From a virus: 39,263 nucleotides of DNA. The first letter of the stretch is position 1. The number at the start of each line of letters is the position of its first letter. Of this stretch, positions 4,773-30,341 are shown piece by piece. The notes under the pieces are model-generated. The model made no database searches. It was not told the DNA's origin and saw nothing but the letters and a program-made list of their open reading frames with translations. The position numbers were made by a program, and so were the translations under genes. The stretch spans positions 1-39,263 of IMG/VR virus record IMGVR_UViG_3300035703_000196. One strand, written 5' to 3'.

Positions 4773-7700
4773 TTAGTCTCCTGGTTCTTCGTATACAAAG
4801 TCAAACTTATCATTTTCAAAGTATCTAATATATAACTTATCAAAGTTAATATCCGATGCTCTGAGTTCTGCAACGTTTAGCATGACCTGCGTCCGCAAAT
4901 GTGTTGCTTGCTGAGAGTCAAAGGTAGTTCCCATTCTCTGAAGCATTGAGTTTACGTATCTGCGATAGTTTAGATAGTCTGCAACTGCATGGAACTTAGG
5001 CTGCTTTAGCAACAACGGTCCAAGCTTTTCATCATTAAGTGCAATAGTCAGCGCAGTTACAGTATCAGCCTGACGACTACCTGCCCCTCCTGCTGACTGA
5101 GCATTATACTCTTGCCACCAAAGGTTGTTATCTTCTTTTGCTGCATCAACGAATGCCTTCTTGTACTGCTTTAATACCGCAGCCCCGTAGCCCTTGTAAG
5201 GATTAATTGCTGGAGTAACACGGGCAAACTCATCCTTAAGTGTTTGTTCAATAATGAAGTAGTCTTTCCAACCCTTGCTTACAAGGACTGAACGACCATT
5301 CTCAAATGCATCAGATACATCACGGAACTTTCTGTTACCAGCTCCTGGTATTCTTGTATCTTGGAGCACTGCTTGCGCCGCGCTAGAGAATGCATAATCA
5401 TCATCATTAAAAATTGCACCTAAAACTGTAAGGTTTTCAACCCCAATACCAGAGACAATCTTCTGAATAGATGGCTTATTATTAACTACCAAACCAGCAG
5501 AAGTTCTATCTGCATTAATTCCTGATGTAGAATCAGATAGTCTATCCATGAACATCCAGGCATCTGGATAATCAATAGAAAACATTTCAGCAGCTTGGGC
5601 TCCGTACTTATCTTGGTACTTGTTAAAGATATCAACGTAACCTGTAACTGATGTTACTAGACGTCCTTGAACTGGCAACGTGTAAGCGCTTACTGTACGT
5701 ATTACCGATAGATAAAATGCACGCTTTTTGGCTTCTTCGAACTGTTGTTCCCACTTTTTAGCAGATGGCTTATTACCAGTTTCCTTAACGTAATCATTCC
5801 ACATCTGTTGGCGGAACATATCAACATCTTTGTTGAACTGTTCACCAGACTTAAGGACTCCTGCTTGCCATACCTGGTATAGTCGACGAGCGGTATTTAC
5901 ATTCAACGCATTAAGAGAGTTGCGCTGCACACCAAATGGTAGCAATGCATCAGTAAAGAAGTTCTCTGTCTGTGTACGCTTGGCGTACTCATTAATTAAT
6001 GCAGCACCCATAGGTGATACAGATAAAATGTTACCACCAGTTGGGTTATCTGGGTTGAACCATTCTACTGGAAGACGTGACTCTAGGCCAAGGAATCCAA
6101 GGTTTACTGGAATGTACTTATTGCCAGCAGAGTCTTCTTCTACTTCGCCAAGACGCTCAGGTATTGTTGAAATAGCCATCTTCTTAACAAGGAAGTCTGG
6201 GTTTTCCATAGTGATACGTGCATATGCACGGAACTGCTCAACAACTGCAGGGAAGAAAGCAAAGACGTAGTTAATCCAACCAGAATAGTTCATGTCACGG
6301 TGGAAAGAGTTAAGCTTTTCTTCGTATTCGCGTTGAGCAAAGTTACGTGCCTTAGCCTCGAACTCTGACTTCTTCTTTAGTGTAAGCTTTGTTCCATTAG
6401 CGTTAGCTAGCCAAATCTGGGTTTGGATTGATTGCTCATACTTTGCTTTGAAATAAGGGTTAAATGCTAGTCTTGCCGTAGGCTGCGTAGCAAGCCAAAC
6501 AACCATATCCTTGGTAGCCTGACGGAAGTTCTTAGATATAGAACTGTTTCCAATCATATCTTCTACTAGGTCAGTAAAGACAGGTGGGCGTGTTTGGATA
6601 TCTGGATATAGTTTCTTTAGTTCCAATAGATTTAACTTGTCAGTAACAACCAAATCTCTTAACGCCTGAGATGGAGCATACATATCAACCATTGCTTTTG
6701 CACGTTGATATGCAACTGGTGCATCTCTAAGGTTGCTTGAGAATCTATCAAGATAGGCGACAGCCTCAGGTGAACCCTTGCGGAACCAGTCGAGTACCAC
6801 CTTCTTCGGGGCACCCTTCATAATCATCTCTGCTACTGGGTCAAAACGTAGCTTATCGTTTAGAATTTGCACCCAAGACTGCATATGACGAGTCTCATCT
6901 GTAGGAAGAATGGATGCTGCGCCACTGCGACCACGACGAGAGATGTCAACTTCTAGCTCACGCACTCCAGCTACAGCTGCACGAAGGTCATCCTTCTGGT
7001 CAATCTTCTGCTTAAAGATAGAACCAAAACGTCCACCAAATGCGCTTTCAAACTCTTCTCCATCAAGCTTAACCTTGCGGTCTCTTACTGGCTTAATCTT
7101 TACGCCAGACACAAGTCTTTGTTCCTGTGCTCGTAGAGCTGCAATGCTATTTGCAACATCGTTACGACGCTGGATATCTGGAATCAAAGCAACTGGTATA
7201 GTCTTTGGAGGATTATTGACATCATACTTTGCCTTAAGTAAGGACTTGTCATACTCATTGAGAACTAGTTGCCGCGCTGCTGCTTCTTTTCTAATCTTCT
7301 TCATGTTATAATTAGAATTAGTTGTAGACTTTACCCAGCGGTTAACTCTATTAACAGTGTTTGTGCTAGATGAAATTGCATCGATTGTGTCTTGAGCAAG
7401 ATACTTCATCATTCCACTAATAGCACCATCGCCCCATGCACGAATGTATGAGTCTTTAATAACGTTAATTGGGTAACCAGTACGAAGTAGGGTACCTGTA
7501 CGCCACAAACTGTTTAGCTCGTCAGCAAGATACATTGCTGATTCTCTGCTGCGAATAATCTTGGTAGTCTCGCCATTGCGCTTTGAAAAATCTTTCAAAA
7601 CGCTATCAACAAACTTCCAGTCAGGAAGTATTGCGCCATTTGCTAGCTGAGTAATAAGCTGAGCGTCTGCAATTAGTGGACCATCAAGGTCATTAGGGTC

Positions 7701-9563
7701 ATTCATGTAACCTTGCTTTAATTCACGCGCCTTAATAGCTTCATCTCTGAAACGCTTGTGGGTCATGTTGTACTTGTCAATTGCAAACTGAATAATATCT
7801 ACGCCGACGTTGTACTTCTCGCCCATTAGTTTCATGCCAGTATCTACATAGTTGTCGATAACTGCAGTCTTTTCGTTTTCTGTTCTAGCCTTCATCCAGT
7901 TGTCAAAAATACGAGCATTTTCCTGTGGGATTGAAGCGCCAAACTTTTCGGCAGAACGAAGGCTTGTCTGCATTCTAATGCCAGCAGCAAACGGTTCATT
8001 GTAATTAATAACTTGCCTTGGCGCATCATCTGTCAAGCGGTCTAAACCACGAACAGGACGCGACAATGGACTTTTCTGATAGAACCATTGGTAGGTTTTA
8101 CCCAATGCTGTTTCCATTTGAATGCCATCATCAAGAGCAAGTTTTCTGCTAGCGTTTTCTTTAGCAAAGTCATTGCGTACTTTTTCAACCATTGCCCATT
8201 TTGATACAGTTCTATTGGTAAGGTCACCTTCAATGCTTAAAGCATCATCAAGCCAACCAACCTCTTTCTTTAATGCTTCAATTTCTGCATCTAAAAGAGA
8301 AACGTTGTTTTTGAAACGCTTAGATAGTACCAGAGTTTGACCTTTAAATTGTAATGAAAATAAACCATTATTGTTTACGTAGTTCATTGCATCATCTAGA
8401 CGTGTATACTCTGCAAATTTGTCAGCACGCTTTGTTGCTAACTCTGCGATTGCCTCAGGGTCTCCGCGACCTACGCGAATTATTAAGCCAATCGTCTCAT
8501 CTGATTCTTTAGCCATGAGCGAAGCTGCAAGTTTTCCGCTTCCACTCTCAAATCCTGCACGATTTGCAACTGTTGCTGCATCATTTTCACGAATAAACTT
8601 TATTACTGGGGTGTATGCGGTTTCTTCACCAGCAACTGTACGCTTAATTAAGTCAACATCTGCAGCTAGACGTGCGCCAACGCGCTCTGCCTCTGACTTT
8701 CCATAAATCTTTTTCTGAAACGGAGTTAAAGGCTCAACAATTGGGTTTCTTAAAGTACCTTTAATAGCAAGTCCTGTGCCTTTTGCTGCGGCTACATCTA
8801 ATCCAAGACCCATTTCTGCAACAAAGTTGACAAGTCCAGAAGAAATAGCTCCAATGCCCTTGCTTGTGTCGCCAAGAGTTTGAGCTCCAGTAATCTGTGC
8901 AGCAGTGTGAACAACATCACGACCAAGATTGTAACGCTCTTGTCCAACATCTGACTCAGAAAACTTTGCAGACTTATTCAAAGTCTTTGAAATACTTGCA
9001 CCTAGGTCAGTTTCGAAAGTGTCGCGTAAACCTTTACCAGCAAGTCCAGCTCCAGCTGTAGCTCCAACGAATGCTCCTGCAGGACCTCCTAAAGCAAAAC
9101 CTGCAAGACCTCCAGCAAGACCACCTGCTACAAAGCCAAGGCTTGCAAGTAGTCCCATCGCTGCATTTTCATCAGCTACGTTACGCAAAAATGCATAGTT
9201 AGAACGAAAGTTTTTTTGTCCAGCCTGCAAAACTTTAGTAGCTCCGCCATCAGTTGCTTCATCAATCTCCATAATTGCAAGACCTGAACCAGCTCCTACT
9301 GCAGCACCAACTGGACCACCAAGAACTAATCCAACAGTTCCGCCAACAAGGGCTGGGTTAGCCTTAGATATAGTGTTAAGCGCAACCTGTCTTACTTTTT
9401 CGGTGTCATCATTATCCCATCCACCAGGATTTTGTGGCAGGTTAGATGCAATATCAAATGAAGTACTAAAAGGAATTCTAGTACTGTTGGTTGATGTAAT
9501 TTGCGCAGCAGGGGTATCTTTAAATACCTTCTGCGTCTTGCCAATATACTCCCAAAGATTCAT
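4773..9563 (-). CDS. Giant internal virion / DNA-ejection protein, 1596 aa
   Basis: The largest gene, one eighth of the genome. Residues about 72-98 (VGLVLGGPVGAAVGAGSGLA) and 140-195 (GGLAGGLAGFALGGPAGAFVG) are glycine-zipper hydrophobic stretches able to enter a membrane. The remainder is long, mostly helical and charged, with no enzyme motif that I recognise. Short-tailed phages of this size usually encode one or more very large internal proteins that leave the head before the DNA and form a channel across the envelope (T7 gp16 is the model). The glycine zippers fit that role. The stop TAA at 4773-4775 lies just before the next ribosome site. Confidence 0.7.
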   Translation of the reverse strand: MNLWEYIGKTQKVFKDTPAAQITSTNSTRIPFSTSFDIASNLPQNPGGWDNDDTEKVRQVALNTISKANPALVGGTVGLVLGGPVGAAVGAGSGLAIMEIDEATDGGATKVLQAGQKNFRSNYAFLRNVADENAAMGLLASLGFVAGGLAGGLAGFALGGPAGAFVGATAGAGLAGKGLRDTFETDLGASISKTLNKSAKFSESDVGQERYNLGRDVVHTAAQITGAQTLGDTSKGIGAISSGLVNFVAEMGLGLDVAAAKGTGLAIKGTLRNPIVEPLTPFQKKIYGKSEAERVGARLAADVDLIKRTVAGEETAYTPVIKFIRENDAATVANRAGFESGSGKLAASLMAKESDETIGLIIRVGRGDPEAIAELATKRADKFAEYTRLDDAMNYVNNNGLFSLQFKGQTLVLSKRFKNNVSLLDAEIEALKKEVGWLDDALSIEGDLTNRTVSKWAMVEKVRNDFAKENASRKLALDDGIQMETALGKTYQWFYQKSPLSRPVRGLDRLTDDAPRQVINYNEPFAAGIRMQTSLRSAEKFGASIPQENARIFDNWMKARTENEKTAVIDNYVDTGMKLMGEKYNVGVDIIQFAIDKYNMTHKRFRDEAIKARELKQGYMNDPNDLDGPLIADAQLITQLANGAILPDWKFVDSVLKDFSKRNGETTKIIRSRESAMYLADELNSLWRTGTLLRTGYPINVIKDSYIRAWGDGAISGMMKYLAQDTIDAISSSTNTVNRVNRWVKSTTNSNYNMKKIRKEAAARQLVLNEYDKSLLKAKYDVNNPPKTIPVALIPDIQRRNDVANSIAALRAQEQRLVSGVKIKPVRDRKVKLDGEEFESAFGGRFGSIFKQKIDQKDDLRAAVAGVRELEVDISRRGRSGAASILPTDETRHMQSWVQILNDKLRFDPVAEMIMKGAPKKVVLDWFRKGSPEAVAYLDRFSSNLRDAPVAYQRAKAMVDMYAPSQALRDLVVTDKLNLLELKKLYPDIQTRPPVFTDLVEDMIGNSSISKNFRQATKDMVVWLATQPTARLAFNPYFKAKYEQSIQTQIWLANANGTKLTLKKKSEFEAKARNFAQREYEEKLNSFHRDMNYSGWINYVFAFFPAVVEQFRAYARITMENPDFLVKKMAISTIPERLGEVEEDSAGNKYIPVNLGFLGLESRLPVEWFNPDNPTGGNILSVSPMGAALINEYAKRTQTENFFTDALLPFGVQRNSLNALNVNTARRLYQVWQAGVLKSGEQFNKDVDMFRQQMWNDYVKETGNKPSAKKWEQQFEEAKKRAFYLSVIRTVSAYTLPVQGRLVTSVTGYVDIFNKYQDKYGAQAAEMFSIDYPDAWMFMDRLSDSTSGINADRTSAGLVVNNKPSIQKIVSGIGVENLTVLGAIFNDDDYAFSSAAQAVLQDTRIPGAGNRKFRDVSDAFENGRSVLVSKGWKDYFIIEQTLKDEFARVTPAINPYKGYGAAVLKQYKKAFVDAAKEDNNLWWQEYNAQSAGGAGSRQADTVTALTIALNDEKLGPLLLKQPKFHAVADYLNYRRYVNSMLQRMGTTFDSQQATHLRTQVMLNVAELRASDINFDKLYIRYFENDKFDFVYEEPGD

Positions 9564-12804: not shown

Positions 12805-14673
12805 CTATCCGTAAGTGTCAACCCATTGTTCGGCAAAGGCCTCATCTAAGTTGAGTGACATGCGTTGTTGTTTTTGACTTCTGGTTGCCCAGCGATTTGT
12901 TTGGTACTGTCCAACTGAAGAAGCCTTCTGCATTAATTCACGTATGCGAATGATAGCAAACCATAAAGCCATCACGCAGTCAGTTGGGTTCTTAGTCTCT
13001 GGCTTCCAAGTAATTAGTTGCTGTACAAGAGACTTGAGTCCCTCAGAGCCTTCGTTGCTTGGTAGTTCAATTAAACCGTTGTCTTGGTAGCGACCATCAT
13101 GGATAGTACCAAAGAGGCTAGACATAGATGCTACACCAAAAGATGTGTCCCACTTGTTCTTACCAGTAAAGTGTGAGTTTAACTGGCAGCCGTAGGTAGC
13201 CAGATAGTTACGCAGGTCAGTGTCCATAGCGTAGTACTTCTGGTGTGCGTTAATCTCAACACGAAACTCTTGTGGATGGTAACGCTCGACCCACTCACGA
13301 ATCAGAGCGTTTTCCTTTTGCGGAGTTGGGTCTGACATGTTAACGCAGTCAAGTACATAGATTCTACCATCGTCGCGGTTGTAAGATACTGCCACGAACG
13401 CTGAGCGTCCAGATACGGCAGGGTCAAAACCAATTACGGTGTAGGTGGAGTTTCCGCTGCGCGGGTGCCCTGGAGTACCTGGTTTAAGCGGTCCACGCTT
13501 TCGCATACCGTTGACACATCCTGCAACTGCTGTTGGCGAGAATATAGAATCGGACTGGACGTCTTCTTGTTGGTAGACCATAGCCCAGACAGATGCCGCC
13601 ACTTCAGAGCGGCGCGTAAAGAGCGAGGGTCCATCCCATTTCGGATAAAGTCCATTGTCATCAGGTTCATCAATCTCGTTCTCCTGCATTGTGGTCTTAG
13701 GCCACAGCGTCTTCCAGTTTTCAGGCTTCTCGTCAAACTGAAGTACGGCAGGCATTGCAAAGTAGGTAAAGGGTGACTTGCCACCAGACCATTGCTGGGA
13801 GTCACGTAGCATTTTGTATAGGTCAATTGGTGCAACTCGAGTGCCAACGATAATTAGTTTACCATGTCGCCCAAGGCGGGTAATAACTTCTTTTTGAATC
13901 CACTCGAGCTGCTTTTCCCACTCGTGGGCGTTGGAGCCCATAACAGCATCGTCGATGATAATCAGGTCAGCACGTGCACCGTAAATCTGGGAGCCCATAC
14001 CTAGGGCTTGGACCGTAGGGTCCTTCTCGCCAGAGTCGCGGCCTGTGCCCAGATAAATCATGTCGGCAGACCATTGTGTTGAGTCTGCCTTATAGCCACC
14101 GTTGGGGCCAAAGGCCACTTGTAACTTGGTGTAGGCTGGGTGGGAAAGTCTAGTTTTAATCGCCCCAAGAAACTTGCGGGCCATACCCTGAGTCTTTGAA
14201 ACAATGATGACGCGGGCGTTGGGGTTAGTCACAATCTTGTAGACGACATAGTTAGTCGTGATGACTGTGGACTTGGCGTGCTCAGGCGGTACGTTAATCA
14301 GTACACGGTTAGCCGCCCCTGGCTCGTAGGTCATGGCTGGGTCCATCCAGCGCGGCTCACGGCCCTCAATCAAATCTACCCAGTCAAGGTGATGGTCAAA
14401 GAGTTTGGTGTCTAGGAACTGCTCAGAGAAGTCTGGGAATGAGATATCGCCCAGTTCCTTTAGGTCAGTCTTGATGCCTTTACCCTCGAGGCGAGCAGCC
14501 TCGGCACGTTCTTTGAACTCAGGGTCAGTTGCACACCATTGGCGGAAGGCCACGTCTGAGCGGCCTACAGAGGCCATAGCCTGGGTAATCGTGCTACCCT
14601 GACTCAGTTGCTGCAGGGCCTTTTCTTGCGCCTCGCGCTTGGGGATGTTCTGAATCCCAGGTTTTCTACCCAT
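12805..14673 (-). CDS. terL: Terminase large subunit with N-terminal helix-turn-helix
   Basis: 622 residues. The ATPase domain shows a Walker A variant in 'NVPPEHAKST' (about residue 130), Walker B 'ADLIIIDDAV' and a coupling motif 'IIVGTRVA'. The nuclease domain begins with 'VIGFDPAVSG' (first catalytic Asp) and ends with a conserved Asp region 'NPTDCVMALWFA'. Residues 10-55 ('EKALQQLSQGSTITQAMASVGRS') look like a DNA-binding helix-turn-helix, usually a separate small-subunit property, so this may be a fused recognition domain. It is the first gene of the late operon, with AGGGGAC as ribosome site, and would cut and pump the replicated DNA into procapsids. Confidence 0.93.
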   Translation of the reverse strand: MGRKPGIQNIPKREAQEKALQQLSQGSTITQAMASVGRSDVAFRQWCATDPEFKERAEAARLEGKGIKTDLKELGDISFPDFSEQFLDTKLFDHHLDWVDLIEGREPRWMDPAMTYEPGAANRVLINVPPEHAKSTVITTNYVVYKIVTNPNARVIIVSKTQGMARKFLGAIKTRLSHPAYTKLQVAFGPNGGYKADSTQWSADMIYLGTGRDSGEKDPTVQALGMGSQIYGARADLIIIDDAVMGSNAHEWEKQLEWIQKEVITRLGRHGKLIIVGTRVAPIDLYKMLRDSQQWSGGKSPFTYFAMPAVLQFDEKPENWKTLWPKTTMQENEIDEPDDNGLYPKWDGPSLFTRRSEVAASVWAMVYQQEDVQSDSIFSPTAVAGCVNGMRKRGPLKPGTPGHPRSGNSTYTVIGFDPAVSGRSAFVAVSYNRDDGRIYVLDCVNMSDPTPQKENALIREWVERYHPQEFRVEINAHQKYYAMDTDLRNYLATYGCQLNSHFTGKNKWDTSFGVASMSSLFGTIHDGRYQDNGLIELPSNEGSEGLKSLVQQLITWKPETKNPTDCVMALWFAIIRIRELMQKASSVGQYQTNRWATRSQKQQRMSLNLDEAFAEQWVDTYG

Positions 14674-14760
14674 CAGTTTGTCCCCTAATTACAGTCATTT
14701 AACGCTAGCCGATTAACGGCAGAACTTCCCCATATATATAATATATTATATAATATATAA

Positions 14761-14791
14761 GAGTCGCGGAGTCTTAAACGGAGCGACTCCG
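14761..14791. promoter_or_regulatory. Alternative hairpins GAGTCGC/GCGACTC and CGGAG/CTCCG
   Basis: GAGTCGC (14761-14767) can pair with GCGACTC (14783-14789). A second, mutually exclusive hairpin pairs CGGAG (14779-14783) with CTCCG (14787-14791) around the triloop CGA. A further AT inverted repeat (TATATGTA/TACATATA) follows at about 14792-14813. The position suits a leader or origin structure upstream of the terminase. Confidence 0.45.
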
Positions 14792-14908
14792 TATATGTAT
14801 TTCTATACATATAAGATAACCTGTTCAAATCGTAAAAGCGAACAGATTATATCAATATATTTTAAAAGCCCTGTTCAGGGCTATATATAGGGGGCTACTG
14901 ATATATAT

Positions 14909-14967
14909 CGCAGGGGGTAATCACAATATAACAGAAATTTTTATTGGGATACTATACACCCCCTGCG
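14909..14967. repeat. Perfect 10-bp inverted repeat with 39-base AT-rich loop
   Basis: CGCAGGGGGT (14909-14918) is exactly complementary to ACCCCCTGCG (14958-14967). The loop is AT-rich with a TTTTT run. GC-rich arms around an AT-rich centre in a gene-free region fit an origin element, a transcription barrier between the divergent operons or a protein-binding site. An additional short hairpin, AGCCC/GGGCT, lies just to the left near 14870-14885. Confidence 0.5.
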
Positions 14968-15069
14968 TATCAAAATTAAATAATCTGGGGTCAAATTGTC
15001 GACAAATAGATAAAACTATAAAGAGATTAAGCGGTTTAGGTATTTATAGACTTACCGACACTCCACCCA

Positions 15070-15218
15070 CCCACAGCAGACTCTCAGGAAACTCACAGTT
15101 AACTCTCAGTTTTGGGGGGCTATAATAATTCTCAGGAAGTTCTCAGGTAACTCTCAGACTTAACAGGGTGTGACCCACGTCACAGGATACTCTCAGACTT
15201 CTCTCAGGAAACTCACAG
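15070..15218. repeat. Eleven CTCTCAG-like boxes in three phased groups
   Basis: Seven-base boxes begin at 15070, 15081, 15092 and 15103; at 15129, 15140 and 15151; and at 15179, 15190, 15201 and 15212. Inside each group the spacing is exactly 11 bp, one helical turn. The boxes read CCCACAG, CTCTCAG, CTCACAG, CTCTCAG; TTCTCAG, TTCTCAG, CTCTCAG; GTCACAG, CTCTCAG, CTCTCAG, CTCACAG. Spacers are four bases, mostly A/T-rich. Seven-base direct repeats with four-base spacers are the architecture of OmpR/PhoB-family operators. The actinobacterial PhoP site TCACAGC-N4-TCACAGC is very close in sequence. The array ends 44 bp before a -35 element, as an activator site would. Iterons for a replication initiator are the alternative. 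Confidence 0.8.
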
Positions 15219-15242
15219 GGAAAGTGTGAGCGACATCACAAT

Positions 15243-15286
15243 GGGTTGAGCGTGTTGGGTGCTTGACATTGTGGGGTTGAGCGTGT
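15243..15286. repeat. 13-bp direct repeat GGGTTGAGCGTGT
   Basis: GGGTTGAGCGTGT occurs at 15243-15255 and again at 15274-15286, 31 bp apart (three helical turns). The second copy lies in the spacer of the promoter at 15263-15291 and ends at the first base of its -10, while the first lies just upstream of its -35. This is the usual layout for a repressor binding two sites around a promoter. Confidence 0.55.
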
Positions 15287-15291
15287 AGTCT
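15263..15291 (+). promoter_or_regulatory. Early promoter PE1 (TTGACA-17-TAGTCT)
   Basis: A perfect -35 TTGACA at 15263-15268, a 17-base spacer and a weak -10 TAGTCT at 15286-15291. A strong -35 with poor -10 is compatible with dependence on an activator or with repression through the flanking 13-bp repeats. It is the first rightward promoter after the phased box array. Confidence 0.5.
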
Positions 15292-15361
15292 TTGTCTTGT
15301 AATCGGATAGGGGAATAACCCCAAAGGGTCACAAAGCAAGACACGGGTCAATCGTGAGTAG

Positions 15362-15389
15362 TTGACAAGGTAGAATTATCGTGTATAAT
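15362..15389 (+). promoter_or_regulatory. Early promoter PE2 (TTGACA-16-TATAAT)
   Basis: Both hexamers are perfect consensus: TTGACA at 15362-15367 and TATAAT at 15384-15389 with a 16-base spacer. It should be the strongest host-type promoter in the region. The first coding start is more than 200 bases downstream, so its transcript begins with a long leader containing the structured segment at 15453-15529. Confidence 0.8.
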
Positions 15390-15452
15390 TCTCCAAAGAT
15401 AGGCAGACCTAGCGAAAGTTAGAGCGTCACTTATCAAAGACAATTCAATAGT

Positions 15453-15529
15453 GTGTAGGTCGGTAGTCTTGATTAGATACTTAGTAACAGCGGGACGCCC
15501 GTGAGTATCACGACACGCCCGACCTACAC
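15453..15529 (+). ncRNA. Structured leader or small RNA candidate
   Basis: GTGTAGGTCGG (15453-15463) is exactly complementary to CCGACCTACAC (15519-15529), an 11-bp closing stem. Inside it are two competing hairpins: CGGG/CCCG around ACG (15491-15501) and CGTGA/TCACG around GTA (15500-15512). The block is transcribed from the perfect promoter at 15362-15389 and ends before the next promoter. No T run follows, so it is not a plain terminator. It may be a small RNA, an attenuator or a DNA-level origin structure. Confidence 0.45.
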
Positions 15530-15536
15530 GCTAGAA

Positions 15537-15565
15537 TTGACAAAGCAATACAAAGCATGTATAGT
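15537..15565 (+). promoter_or_regulatory. Early promoter PE3 (TTGACA-17-TATAGT)
   Basis: TTGACA at 15537-15542, 17-base spacer, TATAGT at 15560-15565. It directly precedes the gene at 15601. Its context GAATTGACAAAG...ATGTATAGTAC is nearly the same as that of the promoter at 16322-16350, so the two look like copies of one promoter cassette. Confidence 0.8.
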
Positions 15566-15600
15566 ACGGATTACAACTTAACGAGAGAGGATAGATAGAC

Positions 15601-15903
15601 ATGAGTTACAACCCCTACGGGGGTGGTAGTGGTAGTATCGTAGTTACGCCTAGTAAGCCTATTGTGACGGCTCGCCGTCTAGGTAGCCCTAATGCGCGAC
15701 TCACCGATACTAAGCATGGCAAGGCTGTACGCCGTACACGCCCACGCCACGCCGTAACGACCAACCGACCTAAGGTTGAGCGTGTGCTACCGACCCTAAC
15801 TGAACAGGAACAGGAACGCCTAGCCCGCGCCCTAGCACTTAGCGAACGCGAACGCGAGTTCCGCGCCACGCTACCTAGCGTACACATAGACGCGAACGAC
15901 TAA
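15601..15903 (+). CDS. First early protein, 100 aa, basic
   Basis: Unrecognised. The Gly-rich start 'SYNPYGGGSGSIVV' is followed by a basic stretch ('KHGKAVRRTRPRHAVTTNRPK', residues about 38-58) and an acidic helical C-terminus ('LTEQEQERLARALALSERERE'). Start ATG 15601 has GAGAGG 12-17 bases upstream and promoter PE3 35 bases upstream. As the first protein made it is a candidate for binding host RNA polymerase, nucleic acid or another host target, but nothing in the sequence shows which. Codon use is richer in C and G at third positions than in the late genes. Confidence 0.75.
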   Translation: MSYNPYGGGSGSIVVTPSKPIVTARRLGSPNARLTDTKHGKAVRRTRPRHAVTTNRPKVERVLPTLTEQEQERLARALALSEREREFRATLPSVHIDAND

Positions 15904-15908
15904 GATTA

Positions 15909-15957
15909 GCCACGCCCGACTCTGGGGGTAGGTCTAGGTTCGAGCCCTAGCGTGGCA
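15909..15957 (+). other. tRNA-like element: acceptor-like stem plus canonical T-arm
   Basis: GCCACG (15909-15914) pairs with CGTGGC (15951-15956). Inside it, CTAGG (15934-15938) pairs with CCTAG (15946-15950) around the seven-base loop TTCGAGC. This fits the tRNA T-loop rule exactly (G-TTCRANY-C). Only 19 bases replace the D-arm, anticodon arm and variable loop, and the 3' end reads ACGA rather than ACCA. It therefore cannot be a normal tRNA. It could be a tRNA-mimic RNA, a tRNA remnant or an attachment-site-like copy of a host tRNA 3' end, but no integrase is present. Confidence 0.5.
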
Positions 15958-15961
15958 CGAC

Positions 15962-15990
15962 TTGACAAGCCGTCAAGCCTATGGTAAGAT
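15962..15990 (+). promoter_or_regulatory. Early promoter PE4 (TTGACA-17-TAAGAT)
   Basis: TTGACA at 15962-15967, 17-base spacer, TAAGAT at 15985-15990. The next start is 31 bases after the -10 and is preceded by GAGAGAGGGTTAGAC, part of the shared early leader pattern. Confidence 0.75.
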
Positions 15991-16020
15991 ACACTTATCA
16001 TAACAGAGAGAGGGTTAGAC

Positions 16021-16161
16021 ATGACACTTTCAACGGGTGACATGTTCGCACTAATGATAGCCTTGCTATCGGTGAACATGGTACTATTGGTAGCGTTCCG
16101 TAGAGTCTACGTATTAGAGCGTAGATTACGCCGATACGAGGGCTACTATGACGCACGATAA
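16021..16161 (+). CDS. Small single-pass membrane protein, 46 aa
   Basis: Reads MTLSTGDMFALMIALLSV...: a hydrophobic segment at about residues 8-26 followed by a very basic, arginine-rich helix ('FRRVYVLERRLRRYEG'). This is a one-pass membrane protein with its basic tail probably in the cytoplasm. Strong ribosome site GAGAGAGGG and own promoter at 15962-15990. The end overlaps the next start by 14 bases. Small early membrane proteins of phages often block superinfection or perturb the host membrane; no family is recognised. Confidence 0.75.
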   Translation: MTLSTGDMFALMIALLSVNMVLLVAFRRVYVLERRLRRYEGYYDAR

Positions 16162-16336
16162 CCTACTATTGAACCTTACTCAACGTGAGGTCGAGGTAAT
16201 CCGCATGGCACTTAGAGTGCAAGAGGATACCCACAAGCGCAACGACTTCCCTAGTTTATTGCTAGAGGTACAAGACTTGCGCTCTAAGATTGCAGACATG
16301 ATTATAGATAACGCTAGAGAATTGACAAAGGCTTAA
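16148..16336 (+). CDS. Small helical early protein, 62 aa
   Basis: Unrecognised. Fully helical by appearance ('LTQREVEVIRMALRVQEDT', 'LLLEVQDLRSKIADMIID'), charged and without a membrane segment. It starts inside the end of the preceding gene, so it is translationally coupled to the small membrane protein. The last codons contain the -35 of the next promoter (TTGACA, 16322-16327). Confidence 0.65.
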   Translation: MTHDNLLLNLTQREVEVIRMALRVQEDTHKRNDFPSLLLEVQDLRSKIADMIIDNARELTKA

Positions 16337-16350
16337 CGCCATGCTATACT
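16322..16350 (+). promoter_or_regulatory. Early promoter PE5 (TTGACA-17-TATACT)
   Basis: TTGACA at 16322-16327 lies inside the coding end of the previous gene; a 17-base spacer leads to TATACT at 16345-16350. It drives the amidoligase gene, whose start is 31 bases beyond the -10. The flanks GAATTGACAAAG and ATGCTATACTAC repeat those of PE3. Confidence 0.8.
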
Positions 16351-16380
16351 ACGACTATACAGCGAGAGGGGGTGAGATAC

Positions 16381-17685
16381 ATGGAAGAAGTTACCTATGA
16401 GGACAACATCAAAGAGTGTACGGATTGCAGTAGCACGATAGATGACGGAGATGAGTTAATCATCAACGAACATGCCTACTGTACAGAGTGTGCGTTCTTA
16501 TGCTTTGAGTGCGAGACTGTCTTTGCCGTTAGTGGTCAAGGTCGTGAGTTTGTTGCTGACGAGTGGTACTGCTGGGGTTGCGCGACACAATGCGAACGCT
16601 GTAATGACGGAGTTCGCAATGATGACACGCACACAGTAGACAACGAGTCATGGTGTGAGTACTGCTACGAGAACCACAGTTACTACTGTGAGTCATGTAG
16701 TGAGTCATCATCAGAGAGTACGACCTATGTGGGTGATAACCCTTACTGCGAGTCATGCTTTATGGATAACTGCTACTACTGTGATGACTGTGACGAGTCA
16801 TACCACAATGATTACCCTTGCGATTGTCGTGAGAGCGATAGCGTAGAGGGTAAGTGTTGTCGTGCCTATCGTAGTAGTGGTACTATCCACGACTACTCAT
16901 GCAAGCCAGCACCTATCTTCAAGGGTGTAAGCAAGCACAAGATGTATCTCGGCTTTGAGCTAGAGACAGAGATGCCACGTGTAGACTCTGCCTCATCATT
17001 CGCTTCTAGTGCCTTGCTAGGTACTGCGTACCTCAAGCATGACGGCAGTATTAGTAACGGGTTCGAGATAGTGACTCACCCACACACGCACCAAGAGTAC
17101 CGCGAGAATAGTGCAACGCTATGGCATACCATAGAGACACTACGCAAGGACTATGACGCTAGGTCGTGGGATACAGATACCTGTGGCTTACACATACACC
17201 TAAGTCGTGACGGATTTAGTAGTGGCGCACACTTGCATAGGTTCATAGCCTTTGTGTACCACAACGCACCATACATGATGAAGTTTGCAGGTCGCAAGAC
17301 TAGGTTCGCAAGGTTCAATGATGTGTACACCTTTGATGAGTTTGACCGCCCAGTATTCTCCATCAAGCACAAGGTCGGCAACCCTGACCGATACAGTTCA
17401 GAGAGATACTCAGCAGTCAATACGCAGAACAAGAACACCATAGAATTGCGCTTCTTTAGAGGCACAATGAAAGCAAGTGGCGTACTAAGTGCCCTAGACT
17501 TAGCACAAGCCATGGTAGAATACACTAGGGAACTACGACTAGATGACGTCAAACTTGGCGCACTATCTTGGGACTGGTTCGCTGACTATGTAGTGTCCAA
17601 CAATGGACTCTACCCCGACCTATACTCTAGGTTGGACAAGATACAATCGGTAGACATACACAACAAGGTTGTTGCTAATGCTTAG
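16381..17685 (+). CDS. Amidoligase (COOH-NH2 ligase) with Cys-rich zinc domains
   Basis: 434 residues from ATG 16381 (GAGAGGGGG site). An in-frame GTG at 16372 is less likely. Residues about 10-165 carry many CxxC pairs, six or more LIM-like or zinc-ribbon units. Residues about 185-420 show the glutamine-synthetase-fold amidoligase signature: 'GFELE' (191-195), 'KHDGSISNGFEIVT' (219-232), 'CGLHIHLSR' (268-276) and 'TIELRFFRGT' (about 353-362). Such enzymes join a carboxyl to an amine using ATP, making amide-linked peptides or modified proteins. The next gene is a class II glutamine amidotransferase, a partner predicted for this family by comparative genomics. The substrate is unknown; host cell-wall peptide or protein tagging are possibilities. 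Confidence 0.8.
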   Translation: MEEVTYEDNIKECTDCSSTIDDGDELIINEHAYCTECAFLCFECETVFAVSGQGREFVADEWYCWGCATQCERCNDGVRNDDTHTVDNESWCEYCYENHSYYCESCSESSSESTTYVGDNPYCESCFMDNCYYCDDCDESYHNDYPCDCRESDSVEGKCCRAYRSSGTIHDYSCKPAPIFKGVSKHKMYLGFELETEMPRVDSASSFASSALLGTAYLKHDGSISNGFEIVTHPHTHQEYRENSATLWHTIETLRKDYDARSWDTDTCGLHIHLSRDGFSSGAHLHRFIAFVYHNAPYMMKFAGRKTRFARFNDVYTFDEFDRPVFSIKHKVGNPDRYSSERYSAVNTQNKNTIELRFFRGTMKASGVLSALDLAQAMVEYTRELRLDDVKLGALSWDWFADYVVSNNGLYPDLYSRLDKIQSVDIHNKVVANA

Positions 17686-17697
17686 GGAGATGATACT

Positions 17698-18513
17698 ATG
17701 TGCTTACTTGTAGTGTGCGAGCCTAACTCCACACCAAACAAAGCCGACTTACACGCTGGTGCGTGTAGTAATCCACACGGATTTGGCTTTGCCATACATG
17801 CTGGCGATAGAATTATCTCAGAGCGTAGCATGTCTGCTAAAAAATCTATTGCCCGCTTCTTGGAATTACGCAAGCAATTCCCAGACGGGTACGCCATGTG
17901 GCACGCACGATACGCCACACATGGTGTTAAGAACGAACAGAATTGCCACCCGTTCAAGGTTGGTGATGATGAGCGTACTTACCTAGCACACAATGGTGTG
18001 CTTGACATAAGTATCGGCAAGTCCGACAAGCGTAGTGATACGCGTGTCTTCGCTGAGGATACACTACCTAGAATTGGTGGTGTGTCCGCACTTGATGACG
18101 ATAACGTATGGATAATGGCTGAGACTTGGGCTAAGGGTAGCAAGATTGCTATCCTAACATGTGACCCAGCAGCGCAACACCCTATGTATCTACTCAATGA
18201 GTCGGCTGGTTCATGGGACAATGAAGGTATCTGGTGGAGTAACCAAAGTCATAAGCGTACTACCTACCTAACACCTGTCAAAGCCATAGAATACGACGAC
18301 AAACTGTGGGACTACGCAGTAGATGTGGACATAGACCTAGAGCTATGCCCCTACTGCGAGTCTGCCACAGACTTGACAGACAACCCATACTACTGTAACA
18401 TGTGCAAGTCATGCTTTGATTGTTCAGTCATGATAGATGATTGCCTATGTTACACACCAAACAAAGACTGGCAAAGTAAACAAAGCCTAGCCAGTTTCCT
18501 ATACGAATACTAG
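17698..18513 (+). CDS. Class II glutamine amidotransferase (Ntn-hydrolase)
   Basis: 271 residues beginning MC, so removing Met exposes Cys as N-terminal nucleophile. Further family motifs: 'NPHGFGFA' (25-32), 'WHARYATHG' (68-76) and 'HNG' (98-100). These match the glutaminase domain of PurF/GlmS-type enzymes, which releases ammonia from glutamine. No synthetase domain follows; instead a C-terminal Cys-rich zinc ribbon (about 219-255, 'CPYCES', 'CNMCKSCFDC') is present. It is 12 bases from the amidoligase stop, so the two are co-transcribed and probably act as a pair, ammonia supply plus ligase. The ribosome site is AGGGAG. Confidence 0.85.
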   Translation: MCLLVVCEPNSTPNKADLHAGACSNPHGFGFAIHAGDRIISERSMSAKKSIARFLELRKQFPDGYAMWHARYATHGVKNEQNCHPFKVGDDERTYLAHNGVLDISIGKSDKRSDTRVFAEDTLPRIGGVSALDDDNVWIMAETWAKGSKIAILTCDPAAQHPMYLLNESAGSWDNEGIWWSNQSHKRTTYLTPVKAIEYDDKLWDYAVDVDIDLELCPYCESATDLTDNPYYCNMCKSCFDCSVMIDDCLCYTPNKDWQSKQSLASFLYEY

Positions 18514-18524
18514 AGAGGTAACAA

Positions 18525-18788
18525 ATGTCCGCAAGCACAATCCTTGGTCTCGCTGATGAACTACGCATTATCGCAGACGAGATTTCATACAACGCACTTG
18601 ACACTTCAAGTGACTATCCAAAGCGTGGTACTATCGTGAAGGCACTAGCCTCACAGACACGCTTCAAGCCTAAGTCTATGTGGGTATCACTAGGCAACGG
18701 CGCATACAAGCACCTTACTGGTAGCAAGGGTCTTGTTACCACGCACGACCGACTCGAAGGCTATGTCGAAGTAGTCTTCGAAGCGTAA
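18525..18788 (+). CDS. Early protein of unknown function, 87 aa
   Basis: Unrecognised. The N-terminal helix 'ILGLADELRIIADEI' is followed by a mixed region with 'FKPKSMWVSLGNGAYKHLTGSKG', and it ends in 'GYVEVVFEA'. Eleven bases follow the amidotransferase stop, with AGAGAGG as ribosome site, so it belongs to the same transcript and may be a small partner of the amidoligase pair. Confidence 0.65.
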   Translation: MSASTILGLADELRIIADEISYNALDTSSDYPKRGTIVKALASQTRFKPKSMWVSLGNGAYKHLTGSKGLVTTHDRLEGYVEVVFEA

Positions 18789-18793
18789 TCACA

Positions 18794-18851
18794 ACACCTA
18801 GGCATGTGTATAAACTGTTACTTGCCGACACCTGAGTACGTGTATAAACTG
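18794..18851 (+). repeat. Imperfect tandem repeat with GTGTATAAACTG
   Basis: ACACCT...GTGTATAAACTG occurs twice, starting at 18794 and 18828 (unit 34 bp). The 12-base core is identical at 18806-18817 and 18840-18851. It fills the only gap near 90 bases inside the early operon. TGTATAAA could be a -10 element, giving two stacked weak promoters, or the pair could be an operator for the genes that follow. Confidence 0.5.
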
Positions 18852-18881
18852 CTCACTATTATTTACTAGAGAGGATAGATG

Positions 18882-19034
18882 ATGACTACACTATGGAAAG
18901 CAGAATTAACTGATGAGTTAATCGCTCATCTAACTGATGATGATAAGGTACGCATACGCAGAGACCTTGACATGGCAGTCGAGGCTATCTGTAATGAGTA
19001 CGAAGTAGGAAGGGAATACAAGCATGAGTTATGA
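18882..19034 (+). CDS. Small acidic early protein, 50 aa
   Basis: Reads MTTLWKAELTDELIAHL..., ending ...EYKHEL. A second in-frame ATG three bases upstream (18879) could also be used; GAGAGG lies 6-11 bases upstream of that. No family recognised. The 3' end overlaps the next gene by 11 bases. Confidence 0.65.
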   Translation: MTTLWKAELTDELIAHLTDDDKVRIRRDLDMAVEAICNEYEVGREYKHEL

Positions 19035-19131
19035 GCCACCACTTGACGACGACATAGCATTAGGGTATGATGATGAAGAAGAACTCGACGAGGAATTCGA
19101 CGAGATGACAGAGATAGCACTAGAGAGATAG
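19024..19131 (+). CDS. Very acidic micro-protein, 35 aa
   Basis: Reads MSYEPPLDDDIAL...; more than a third of its residues are Asp or Glu, with a run 'DDEEELDEEFDE'. Start lies inside the preceding gene and the stop is nine bases before the WhiB start. Highly acidic small phage proteins can mimic DNA to inhibit host DNA-binding proteins; here that is only a possibility. Confidence 0.55.
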   Translation: MSYEPPLDDDIALGYDDEEELDEEFDEMTEIALER

Positions 19132-19140
19132 GGGATAGAG

Positions 19141-19470
19141 ATGCAAGGTCTATGCACAGGTCATGAGAACCCTGACCTATGGTTCAGCGAGTCTATTGAC
19201 AGCGACGCTGAGAACAACCGCGTCAATGAGCGTAGCGCAGAGTATCAGCAACGCATCGCTAACGTACGGACCGCGCTATCTATCTGCAACGCATGCCCAG
19301 CCAAAGCAGAATGCTTTGCTGAGGGTATGAAGAAAGAAAACTTAGACAATGGAATTTGGGGAGGTTCTCTACCAGGTGAGCGTATCGTACTTGCAGATGC
19401 TTCATTGACATGGAACAATCGCAAGTCTATGATTAACTTCGCACACAGAGTGAGGGCAACAACCAAATGA
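19141..19470 (+). CDS. whiB: WhiB-like iron-sulfur regulator
   Basis: 109 residues with the complete WhiB pattern: C5, then 'CNACPAKAEC' giving C49, C52 and C58, the four ligands of a 4Fe-4S cluster, then 'GIWGG' (71-75) followed by 'ERI'. Near the N-terminus 'NPDLWF' is also typical. WhiB proteins occur only in actinobacteria and their phages and act by binding region 4 of the primary sigma factor. A phage copy can therefore redirect or silence host transcription. The basic C-terminus ('NNRKSMINFAHRVR') may touch DNA. It is the strongest host marker in the window. Confidence 0.9.
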   Translation: MQGLCTGHENPDLWFSESIDSDAENNRVNERSAEYQQRIANVRTALSICNACPAKAECFAEGMKKENLDNGIWGGSLPGERIVLADASLTWNNRKSMINFAHRVRATTK

Positions 19471-19859
19471 AATCATTAACTTTCTTACTGCTCGTAGTAA
19501 TTGCACTGCTACTTGCCGATAACTCAAAGACACCCACGGACACAACAGACAAAGGCGTGCGCGTTTCTTGGAGTAAGGCAGATAGTAAGGCATACGCTAG
19601 AGATAAACTCAACGAGTGGAAAGATAATCAGGTGTCATGTCTCAACAGATTGTGGGGCAAGGAATCCGCATGGAATCCTAAAGCTTTCAATCCTGTTCGC
19701 GTAATGGGGAAGCACGCGGGTGGGATTCCACAACTGTTGGGACTTGACCCTGACACACCAGCACCACGTCAGATAGAACGTGGGCTTGATTATATTTACT
19801 ATAGATACGGCACACCATGCGATGCATGGATTCACTGGAAGAGGAATGGTAACTACTAA
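19467..19859 (+). CDS. Secreted lytic-transglycosylase-like protein, 130 aa
   Basis: Residues 1-18 (MKSLTFLLLVVIALLLA) are a signal peptide or membrane anchor. The rest resembles short actinobacterial lysozyme-fold muralytic domains: 'CLNRLWGKESAWN' with likely catalytic Glu66, 'AGGIPQLLG', 'RQIERGLDYIYYRYGTPCDAW' and terminal 'RNGNY'. Such enzymes cut peptidoglycan glycan strands. The start overlaps the WhiB stop by four bases (ATGA). A muralytic enzyme with its own export signal in the early operon, far from the lysis cassette, suggests early wall remodelling or superinfection exclusion rather than the final lysis step. Confidence 0.75.
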   Translation: MKSLTFLLLVVIALLLADNSKTPTDTTDKGVRVSWSKADSKAYARDKLNEWKDNQVSCLNRLWGKESAWNPKAFNPVRVMGKHAGGIPQLLGLDPDTPAPRQIERGLDYIYYRYGTPCDAWIHWKRNGNY

Positions 19860-20083
19860 TGGCTAAGCATGTAACAGAAATGCGTCCTGATTACACTCAG
19901 GCTATGGACATACGCGGTGCTTCTACTACTGTGTGCCCATGCGGTTGTGAGATTTGGAATCTCAAGACTATCTTTGATGACGACGGAGAGATTGGTATGT
20001 ACTTCCTTGACATGGAGTGCGCTGAGTGTGGTACACTAGCAACAGCACCAACACCTATTGATACGGAGGTAGATGATGACTGA
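19859..20083 (+). CDS. Zinc-ribbon protein, 74 aa
   Basis: 'CPCGCEIW' and 'CAECGT' provide four or more Cys for one zinc ribbon; the C-terminus is acidic ('DTEVDDD'). Start ATG overlaps the preceding stop by one base (TAATG). Similar short zinc ribbons are common in actinophages with unknown role. Confidence 0.7.
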   Translation: MAKHVTEMRPDYTQAMDIRGASTTVCPCGCEIWNLKTIFDDDGEIGMYFLDMECAECGTLATAPTPIDTEVDDD

Positions 20084-20534
20084 GTTTTTACATGAGGTAG
20101 TTAAACGCCGCGAGCGTGCAGAAGAAAGCCGACAATTGATGTCTTACTCTGATAATTTGCAACGAGAAATGCAAGCTTCATATGAAAGATTAGTAGCCAG
20201 CGCAGTTCGAGTTGATGGTTTAGTAAGACCACCAAGTATAACTAGAGATGGCAATTCTTATGTGAATGTATCAGGTTACTTATACGTACGTCAATCTAAC
20301 TGGCCCCTGTCAGCAGACTTGATGTCTTCCATAGCGAGACACTCAACCGCGCAACCATTTCATGAACACTTAATGGAATGTCCACAAAATGGAGAAGGTT
20401 TTGAGTTACGAGCTATTGAATGGACAGGCCCTCGCACTAGCTATGACACTTATAGGTATGAATGTATTGGTTGTCGCCATCAGCAATCAGTCGCAATGCC
20501 TAGACTACATAGACTACCAGGATTGGCGGTATGA
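20073..20534 (+). CDS. Early protein with C-terminal zinc-like motif, 153 aa
   Basis: Unrecognised. The N-terminus is a charged helix ('EVVKRRERAEESRQLMSYSDNLQRE'). The C-terminal half has 'HEHLMECP' and 'YECIGCRHQQ', which could bind a zinc ion. Two in-frame ATGs occur at 20073 and 20076; GGAGG at 20064-20068 suits the second better. It overlaps the upstream gene by 11 bases. Confidence 0.65.
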   Translation: MMTEFLHEVVKRRERAEESRQLMSYSDNLQREMQASYERLVASAVRVDGLVRPPSITRDGNSYVNVSGYLYVRQSNWPLSADLMSSIARHSTAQPFHEHLMECPQNGEGFELRAIEWTGPRTSYDTYRYECIGCRHQQSVAMPRLHRLPGLAV

Positions 20535-20629
20535 TGAACGAGTTTGATGAGTGGGACCAAGCGCTTGGCTTAACAGAGTCAGGCTCTGCCCTAATTGAAT
20601 TGATTGAAAGGTTAAAAGATAATGGCTAG
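20534..20629 (+). CDS. Micro-protein, 31 aa
   Basis: Reads MNEFDEWDQALGL..., ending ...LKDNG. Another in-frame ATG is at 20531. It fits exactly between two genes, with ATGA at the upstream junction and an eight-base overlap with the FmdB-like gene, and this packing is the main support. It is acidic and amphipathic; function unknown. Confidence 0.5.
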   Translation: MNEFDEWDQALGLTESGSALIELIERLKDNG

Positions 20630-20798
20630 TTATGAATACAAATGTGAGATTGACTCAAGCACTATCACAATCAGTAGAGGTATGACCGAACAGGAAATCA
20701 TACCTTACTGCGACAGTTGCAATGAGCCAATGGTAAGGGTGTACAGTGCACCACCTGTCAAGTTTAATGGCAGTGGATTCTATTCAACAGGAGGGTAA
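20622..20798 (+). CDS. FmdB-family zinc ribbon, 58 aa
   Basis: Reads MASYEYKCEID..., with 'YCDSCNEPMVRVYSAPPV' and 'FNGSGFYSTGG'. This is the usual FmdB layout: aromatic start 'YEYKC', CxxC, and the GSGFY-T ending. These proteins are widespread in phages and bacteria and act as small zinc-binding regulators of uncertain target. It starts before the previous gene's stop. Confidence 0.8.
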   Translation: MASYEYKCEIDSSTITISRGMTEQEIIPYCDSCNEPMVRVYSAPPVKFNGSGFYSTGG

Positions 20799-20800
20799 CA

Positions 20801-21019
20801 ATGGTATGTGAAGTATGCGAAGCTGGTGGTTGTTCAGCCTGTGACTTACAGTCTGATGAACTACAGTTTGCTAGCATGAAAGAGATTGAAGAGTTCTACA
20901 ATGTAAATGGGGAAGCATTACATGTTGACCCAGCAGAGCTGGACTTAGAGGGTATGATACAAGAGATGATAGATTCAGAGATTAACTTTGACAGGGAGTA
21001 CAGCCCTGACAATGAGTAG
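20801..21019 (+). CDS. Last early-operon protein, 72 aa, Cys-rich start
   Basis: Starts 'MVCEVCEAGGCSACDLQ', four Cys in the first 14 residues that could bind one metal ion. It continues as an acidic helical protein ('EEFYNVNGEALHVDPAELDLEGMIQEMIDSEI'). GGAGGG precedes the start. Its stop is seven bases from the stop of the convergent sigma-factor gene and no strong terminator lies between, so the two transcripts probably overlap. Confidence 0.7.
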   Translation: MVCEVCEAGGCSACDLQSDELQFASMKEIEEFYNVNGEALHVDPAELDLEGMIQEMIDSEINFDREYSPDNE

Positions 21020-29612: not shown

Positions 29613-30341
29613 TTAGTCTTGTTGTTTTTCTTGCGCTCTTTGTTTCATCATGTCTAATGTCCAGTACATATCATAGTACCCAACATCTAGCGAGAATCGC
29701 TTAATGTGTCGTACTAATGCACCAGTGTGTGCGTGTAGTGGAATACCTGCTTCTTGCATCTTACGGAAGAAGACAATGTCTTCGCCCACATACTTATCGC
29801 CAATGTTCTCTTGCTCAGCAAACATAGACTGATTAGGAAACTTCTCACGCATCTTAGGAATGATTGACTTATGCATCAGTACAAAACCAAAGCCTGCGCT
29901 GTCTACCTTAATGAGTTCATTAGGCGGTAGTGGGTGTACATGCTGAATGGTGTGCTCATCTACATCAAAGAACAATGCAGGGTATGGCTTAGCCAATGTA
30001 CCCTCATTCTCCTTGGAGATGAAGTAAGTACCGCTAACGACTGGCTTGCCAATTTTGTCAGCAGCATCCCAGAGTTTAGCAACTACCTCCATGTTGACTA
30101 CAATGTCTGAGTCAATCCATAAAAGCCAATCAGTTTTAATCTGGTCAGCCCAATAGTCAAACAGAACTTGGCGTTGTCTGCCAATCTGATTGCCTTGTAC
30201 TCGCATACTGTGAGTAAGTTCGATGCCATTGTTAGAGCACTGTAGTGCCACACTAACGACACCTTCTGTAAACTTACCATCTGTGTTACCGTTGTCACAC
30301 CAGCCTAGGGCTAGAGTTCCTTTGTTGATTTTATTAGCCAT
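29613..30341 (-). CDS. Glycosyltransferase, GT-A fold
   Basis: 242 residues. 'TDWLLWIDSDIVV' contains the D77-S-D79 metal/sugar-nucleotide motif. 'GKPVVSGTYF', 'VDSAGFGFVLMHKSI' and 'VGEDIVFFRKM' (acceptor-side Asp) fit GT2-like enzymes. A catalytic His may lie in 'ALVRHIKRFS'. It has its own upstream gap with a hairpin and AT-rich sequence, so it may be expressed separately. In the tail-fibre block it could glycosylate virion proteins, for example fibres, or change host surface sugars to block superinfection. Confidence 0.8.
   Translation of the reverse strand: MANKINKGTLALGWCDNGNTDGKFTEGVVSVALQCSNNGIELTHSMRVQGNQIGRQRQVLFDYWADQIKTDWLLWIDSDIVVNMEVVAKLWDAADKIGKPVVSGTYFISKENEGTLAKPYPALFFDVDEHTIQHVHPLPPNELIKVDSAGFGFVLMHKSIIPKMREKFPNQSMFAEQENIGDKYVGEDIVFFRKMQEAGIPLHAHTGALVRHIKRFSLDVGYYDMYWTLDMMKQRAQEKQQD

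Follow-up and report, generated by a model that had tools for sequence, protein, structure and literature searches.

The window, that is, the whole stretch of DNA analyzed here, is an entire IMG/VR virus record of 39,263 bases. On its plus strand, a ligase gene (A), a glutamine amidotransferase gene (B) and a small gene (C) follow one another behind a promoter-like site:

16148..16336, plus strand: small open reading frame (ORF) of 62 aa, 5' of the promoter-like site; a frequent neighbor whose membership is doubtful
16322..16350, plus strand: sigma-70-type promoter-like site, TTGACA-17-TATACT with TG ahead of the second hexamer, immediately 5' of A
16381..17685, plus strand: gene A, predicted Amidoligase_2 (GS-fold COOH-NH2 ligase) of 434 aa, from PF12224, an AlphaFold2 model and structural matches
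16423..16821, plus strand: Cys-rich N-terminal array of A, C15-C147, nine CxxC motifs, LIM-like zinc knuckles
16930..17682, plus strand: putative catalytic GS-like domain of A, residues 184-434, with near-invariant residues
17698..18513, plus strand: gene B, stand-alone class II glutamine amidotransferase (GAT-II) of 271 aa with Cys2 as nucleophile, from GATase_6
18346..18450, plus strand: Cys-rich C-terminal tail of B, C217-C251, from sequence; CxxC in relatives
18525..18788, plus strand: gene C, 87 aa, predicted N-terminal helix and small SH3/KOW-like barrel; lineage-specific third member

The start of A is the ATG at 16381, and a GTG at 16372 is a possible alternative. A and B, both on the plus strand, are separated by 12 bases, and C starts 11 bases after B on the same strand. 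A previous reading made from the letters alone (the sequence-only reading) had named the two families, their motifs and the A-B spacing, all correctly: the Pfam cut-offs were passed and the gap is the 12 bases given.

The A protein matched Amidoligase_2 (PF12224) with 30.5 bits against a Pfam cut-off of 22. This was its sole Pfam listing at E<=1, the Pup ligase/Dop profile giving no match, and the same family was matched at E<=0.1 in 40 of 41 aligned A sequences. The AlphaFold2 model built on this 41-sequence alignment had a pLDDT of 86.8 and a pTM of 0.63. In this predicted model, the best structural match of residues 184-434 was YbdK (Z 13.3 and 13.1; 1tt4, Z 13.3 over 226 residues at 3.7 A), followed by glutamate-cysteine ligase (Z 12.2), glutamine synthetases (about 11-12) and Dop (10.6). 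The catalytic domain of A is predicted to have a glutamine-synthetase-type fold, in agreement with what the sequence-only reading had expected. Identity to YbdK and glutamate-cysteine ligase, the nearest solved folds, was 12-14%. Those two enzymes are single-subunit ligases of small molecules that are not known to have a GAT-II partner or zinc knuckles.

Residue conservation was counted over 99 contig groups (loci sharing an exact 300-mer were merged into one group), and only groups with a letter at the position were counted. G191, E193, E195, D221, S223, E229 and H271 of A were present in 96 of 96 groups, and N347, E355 and R357 in 96 of 97; all ten were also near-invariant in 18 highly diverse A proteins. 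By sequence, A thus has the acidic, His, Asn and Arg residues that its family conserves in the active site; the roles of single residues are inferred.

B passed the Pfam cut-offs of GATase_6 (33.7 bits, cut-off 27) and GATase_4 (28.6 bits, cut-off 23). Its N-terminus is Met-Cys, it aligns with the GlmS glutaminase domain over HxRxATHG, NxHP and HNG, and its profile search recovers GlmS and PurF. C2, H69, R71, T74 and G76 were kept in 96 of 96 contig groups, N99 and G100 in 97 of 97 and D114 in 96 of 97. These residues identify B as a predicted class II glutamine amidotransferase with all of the glutaminase signature. Against six relatives, dN/dS was 0.17-0.24 for A, 0.09-0.22 for B and 0.12-0.33 for C, values that point to purifying selection on all three genes.

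The nine CxxC motifs of A lie within its N-terminal 150 residues, and at least 90% of the 41 aligned sequences retain the pairs from 41/44 to 134/137. Foldseek matched this region to tandem LIM domains (LMO2, TES) at E 3.6e-4, with a TM score of only about 0.3 and a metal-free model. Pfam LIM (PF00412) did not match the A protein of the window and was matched at E<=0.1 in 5 of the 41 aligned sequences; a single relative scored alone reached 21.1 bits, below the cut-off of 22.9. On these Pfam results, the array is not claimed as a LIM domain. Profile matches of A to LIM chains in the PDB (best E 0.0015) are likely to reflect composition bias, because saposin, ClpX and other Cys-rich chains were matched alongside them. 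We therefore describe the array as LIM-like, not LIM. A literature search found no paper on an amidoligase combined with a LIM domain.

The tail of B contains at least two CxxC motifs in 79 of 89 contig groups. The sequence-only reading had placed zinc units in both proteins and had suggested a shared scaffold. The Cys-rich regions of the A N-terminus and the B tail are real, but homology between them is unsupported: hhalign gave a probability of 7.5% and a score of 25.5, against 9.7-24.1 for 20 column-shuffled controls. Beyond the CxxC motifs themselves, the shared scaffold has no sequence support. Outside the C-bearing lineage, the co-occurrence of fingers in A and B was suggestive only (Fisher P 0.058, 17 groups, 5 truncated groups left out). 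Four C-bearing groups were scored 'A<4' only since alignment trimming had removed their N-terminus.

C had no family in Pfam, PHROGs or NCBIfam. In its AlphaFold2 model (pLDDT 87.6), a helix leads into a small barrel of five strands that weakly resembles KOW/SH3 folds (best Z 5.9, Spt5, 53 residues). Foldseek gave no match at E<=0.001, and no solved structure was related to C by profile at E<=1. The small genes 3' of the pair in Marvin-type mycobacteriophages were considered as homologues of C and gave no HMM match; in the phage records opened, the HMM search for C gave no match beyond the aquatic lineage. With C as bait, 80 of 105 relatives were kept, giving 54 contig groups of which 46 were testable, and A and B lay upstream in all 46. 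These counts assign C to the A-B unit in the phage lineage of the window, as a member new here.

The partners of each gene were counted only in loci fetched with that gene alone as bait, which avoids circularity. With A as bait there were 67 groups, and B lay within 2 kb in 61 of the 63 that were testable (at least 900 bases 3' of A). The two exceptions were Clostridioides phage AR1086-1 (C. difficile; L144) and a Microcoleus phage (L146); in these phages the ligase occurs on its own, so it can also function without B. With B as bait, 80 of 180 relatives were kept, giving 46 groups, and A was present in all 40 that were testable. The proposal of the sequence-only reading that A and B act together is judged right, and the conservation of the pair (61 of 63) leaves that reading standing. 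Together with the dN/dS values (0.09-0.33), the near-total linkage in distant phages indicates that the pair is not a chance arrangement.

A-B pairs, not always adjacent, occur in phages of Mycobacterium, Methylophilales, Acinetobacter, Bifidobacterium, Rhizobium and Stenotrophomonas. Of the 26 records with an A-like protein in the phage collection, seven were opened; Marvin-type mycobacteriophages account for 19 of the 26 records and for one of the seven opened. In six further GAT-II phage records that were opened, the spacing of A and B ranged from neighbors to 1.3 kb, and Stenotrophomonas phage StenR_269 had two GAT-II genes within a larger cassette. A search of bacterial genomes with a narrower A alignment returned two loci, on MAG contigs of 3330 and 5639 bases, with A and B present and C absent. 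These contigs, L296 (RFQY01000240.1) and L297 (DYOP01000098.1), labelled Rhodobacteraceae and Bdellovibrio, are probably viral fragments binned with bacteria.

The nearest named record to the window is OX376641, Planktophila phage F5, whose terminase (TerL) is 78.6% identical to that of the window and which shares its gene order. Excerpts of one report describe phages E7 and F5 as infecting the freshwater actinobacterium 'Ca. Planktophila' (PMC10202952), and the host of the window phage is probably of the same order. None of A, B and C is present in the isolated phage F5, in which the terminase-whiB interval holds other small ORFs. The A-B-C function is thus dispensable, as a relative does without it. 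The terminase-whiB site was spanned by 31 loci (F5 and 30 of the 80 loci selected by their terminase). All three genes were present in 17 of them, A and B without C in seven, and none of the three in seven, F5 included. A alone or B alone was found in 0 of the 31. Independent co-loss of A and B was considered and rejected; the loci with none form one clade on the terminase tree, so that their co-absence is one event for A and B and not independent evidence. In the sister group with A and B and without C, other small ORFs follow B (L364:3108-3335, L365:3069-3275). A literature search found no paper on a freshwater actinophage with a glutamine amidotransferase.

The promoter-like site before A agrees with the consensus at 11 of 12 bases. 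It is one of several such sites on the plus strand (15537 and 15962, among others) and the one directly before A. Of 71 regions 5' of A in relatives, which are related and hence not independent, 41 have it at about the same offset with at most two mismatches, whereas a comparable site was found in 7.0% of 4000 random segments. The site was absent by the rule used from 23 of the 71 regions, many of them from more divergent relatives. The suggestion that A has a promoter of its own is thus upheld, as a promoter-like site.

Three neighboring genes had also been proposed as members. The one at 18525, gene C, proved constant (46 of 46 groups); the other two were only partly conserved, the 62-aa ORF at 16148 preceding the unit in 48, and a 46-aa ORF at 16021 in 36, of the 69 contig groups with enough upstream sequence. 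The 16148 ORF belongs to no Pfam family, and is possibly a fourth member. It begins with a conserved 'LT.REVEVIRMALR', and the seven relatives that lack A and B yielded no copy of it. On the neighbor conservation counts, the unit consists of A-B-C behind its own promoter-like site, with the 16148 ORF as a possible associate. Downstream of the unit, a whiB gene and a transglycosylase gene were present in 74 of 74 groups and a further small ORF (19859) in 73 of 74; in the window, a whiB-like regulator and then a transglycosylase with an N-terminal hydrophobic stretch occupy 19141-19859. Rfam gave no match at 14600-21000, and no tRNA was found in the window. On the minus strand, 4776-9563 encodes a protein of 1596 aa with no PHROG match at E<=0.001.

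We propose that A and B are two subunits of a phage glutamine-dependent amide ligase. Taken whole, with the docking parts and wall target described below, this is the best explanation of the locus, and we give it a probability of about 0.55. B would lose Met1, and its N-terminal Cys would hydrolyze glutamine to glutamate and ammonia. With ATP, A would convert a carboxylate into an activated acyl phosphate, which the ammonia would attack to form an amide. This joint reaction of A and B seems to us fairly probable. In several distant phages there is no other ligase beside the A-B pair, so that ammonia is the sole amine source encoded there; this would favor amidation over peptide building.

The LIM-like array of A and, in the lineage of the window, C might act in docking, keeping the complex or its substrate in place, a role on which our judgment is evenly balanced. 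A macromolecule as docking partner is suggested by the zinc knuckles and C, and this leaves room for protein modification. It is conceivable, if unlikely, that A attaches an amino acid or peptide by an amide bond to a protein of the host or the phage, in the way PafA attaches Pup, and that B is a processing amidohydrolase acting on glutamyl linkages and not a source of ammonia, while the knuckles select the protein target. The fold is common to Dop and PafA (Dop Z 10.6; Foldseek rows 9cku, 4b0r and 4bjr), LIM-like arrays usually bind proteins, and C is a small dedicated partner. However, the folds closest to A are YbdK and glutamate-cysteine ligase and not PafA, B has a complete glutaminase signature, and no Pup-like gene was identified among the neighbors examined. 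C is an unlikely carboxyl substrate because it has no invariant Asp or Glu, and its candidacy as a ligated peptide was rejected for this reason.

The amide ligase and protein modification might also be combined in a three-protein machine, in which a knuckle-guided GS-fold ligase, its own class II glutaminase and a small barrel escort would amidate or conjugate a selected protein of the host while the phage infects freshwater actinobacteria. We regard this as distinctly improbable; if true, it would be a new kind of phage-made protein modification. To our knowledge, the machine would also be the first case of a GS-fold amidotransferase whose class II glutaminase is a subunit of its own. Bearing zinc knuckles and paired with a class II glutaminase, a GS-fold ligase would also represent a new architecture among enzymes.

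For the amide ligase, the likeliest target would be a carboxylate of a host wall precursor peptide (D-Glu or diaminopimelate), and the resulting change in the wall would act against superinfecting phages or premature lysis. This target is plausible and is put forward tentatively, on the strength of a published prediction and the analogy with MurT/GatD. Zinc-finger arrays, not expected in an enzyme acting on a small wall precursor, count against it.

A phage peptidoglycan-modification cassette has reportedly been described by Iyer et al. in 2009 and Hardies et al. in 2013, in LUZ24-like phages, PaP3, phiEco32 and RIO-1. The Amidoligase_2/GAT-II pair is not new, as excerpts of the literature report it in podoviruses, mycobacteriophage Marvin and OM43 phages. 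In such excerpts, the gene set is termed a peptidoglycan modification cassette or module (PMC5498523; PMC11945000), wall modification is cited for phiEco32 (PMC10580990; repeated in PMC11318856), and a LUZ24-like phage has both families plus ATP-grasp, COOH-NH2_lig and AIG2 (PMC3890496). MurT/GatD of Staphylococcus aureus is a tested two-gene system for glutamine-dependent amidation of wall peptides, as excerpted (PMC3267633). The window pair has this logic in common with it, but the families differ, MurT being of the Mur-ligase type and GatD a CobB/CobQ-type GATase. The literature searched contained no experiment on the function or activity of any phage Amidoligase_2/GAT-II pair.

As far as the excerpts describe it, the LUZ24-like, PaP3, phiEco32 and RIO-1 cassette resembles the window in having an Amidoligase_2 and a stand-alone GAT-II in a non-structural region, and adds a second COOH-NH2 ligase, an ATP-grasp and a gamma-glutamyl cyclotransferase. 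The window pair instead has gene C and long CxxC arrays. Among the 10 neighboring proteins at 15.6-20.5 kb, no ATP-grasp or gamma-glutamyl cyclotransferase exceeded the Pfam cut-off, and a PreAtp-grasp match (E 0.093) was far below it; window ORFs outside this interval were scanned in part, with PHROGs. In OM43 phages MEP401/402 the amidoligase adjoins the GATase, as in the window, whereas the B homologue has no finger tail and gene C is absent.

Marvin-type phages also have a neighboring ligase and GAT-II (genes 105/106; 111/112 in Clarkson, L139), 33.8% and 35.9% identical to A and B and with CxxC in both. They differ in a 79-base gap, a shorter N-terminal array, the absence of C and two unrelated 82-aa genes after the pair. 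Clarkson gene 111 (L139:5926-7287) is named 'glutamine amidotransferase domain protein' in most Marvin-type records; it is actually the ligase, an A homologue, with an Amidoligase_2 E of 0.0012 just under the cut-off, and its neighbor is the GAT-II. The same pair is present in these phages, which infect Mycobacterium smegmatis mc2 155; they offer a tractable version that makes the wall-modification prediction directly testable. Amidoligase/GAT-II pairs span phages of very different hosts, and in the literature searched their functions are predicted only. The present analysis reduces the unit to a minimal form, two enzymes and one lineage-specific partner, with both active sites kept in nearly every relative.

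It is also possible, and in our estimate quite unlikely, that the pair is an auxiliary metabolic gene set, which would either produce a metabolite of amidated or gamma-glutamyl type or handle nitrogen on behalf of the phage. YbdK and glutamate-cysteine ligase, which A matches in fold, are small-molecule ligases. No other pathway gene was recognized beside the pair in the lineage of the window, and the long Cys-rich arrays suggest a macromolecular partner. In excerpts, the amidoligase (PF12224) and GATase (PF13522) genes of OM43 phages are listed as auxiliary metabolic genes and metabolite synthesis is suggested for Marvin (PMC10580990).

The B-less relative in Clostridioides phage AR1086-1 (L144:5054-7863) lies between DUF1653 and RlaP-family nucleotidyltransferase genes, with kptA nearby, which by gene content is an RNA-repair setting for the Amidoligase_2 family. 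This setting could favor a ligase that amidates or decorates a modified base or tRNA. We consider such a role of the window pair highly improbable, since B is absent from the RNA-repair neighborhood and PHROGs revealed no base-modification gene in 30 window proteins, except a distant glycosyltransferase (29616-30341, minus strand; PHROG 34859, E 6.8e-103). The latter is possibly another surface- or DNA-modifying enzyme of this phage group.
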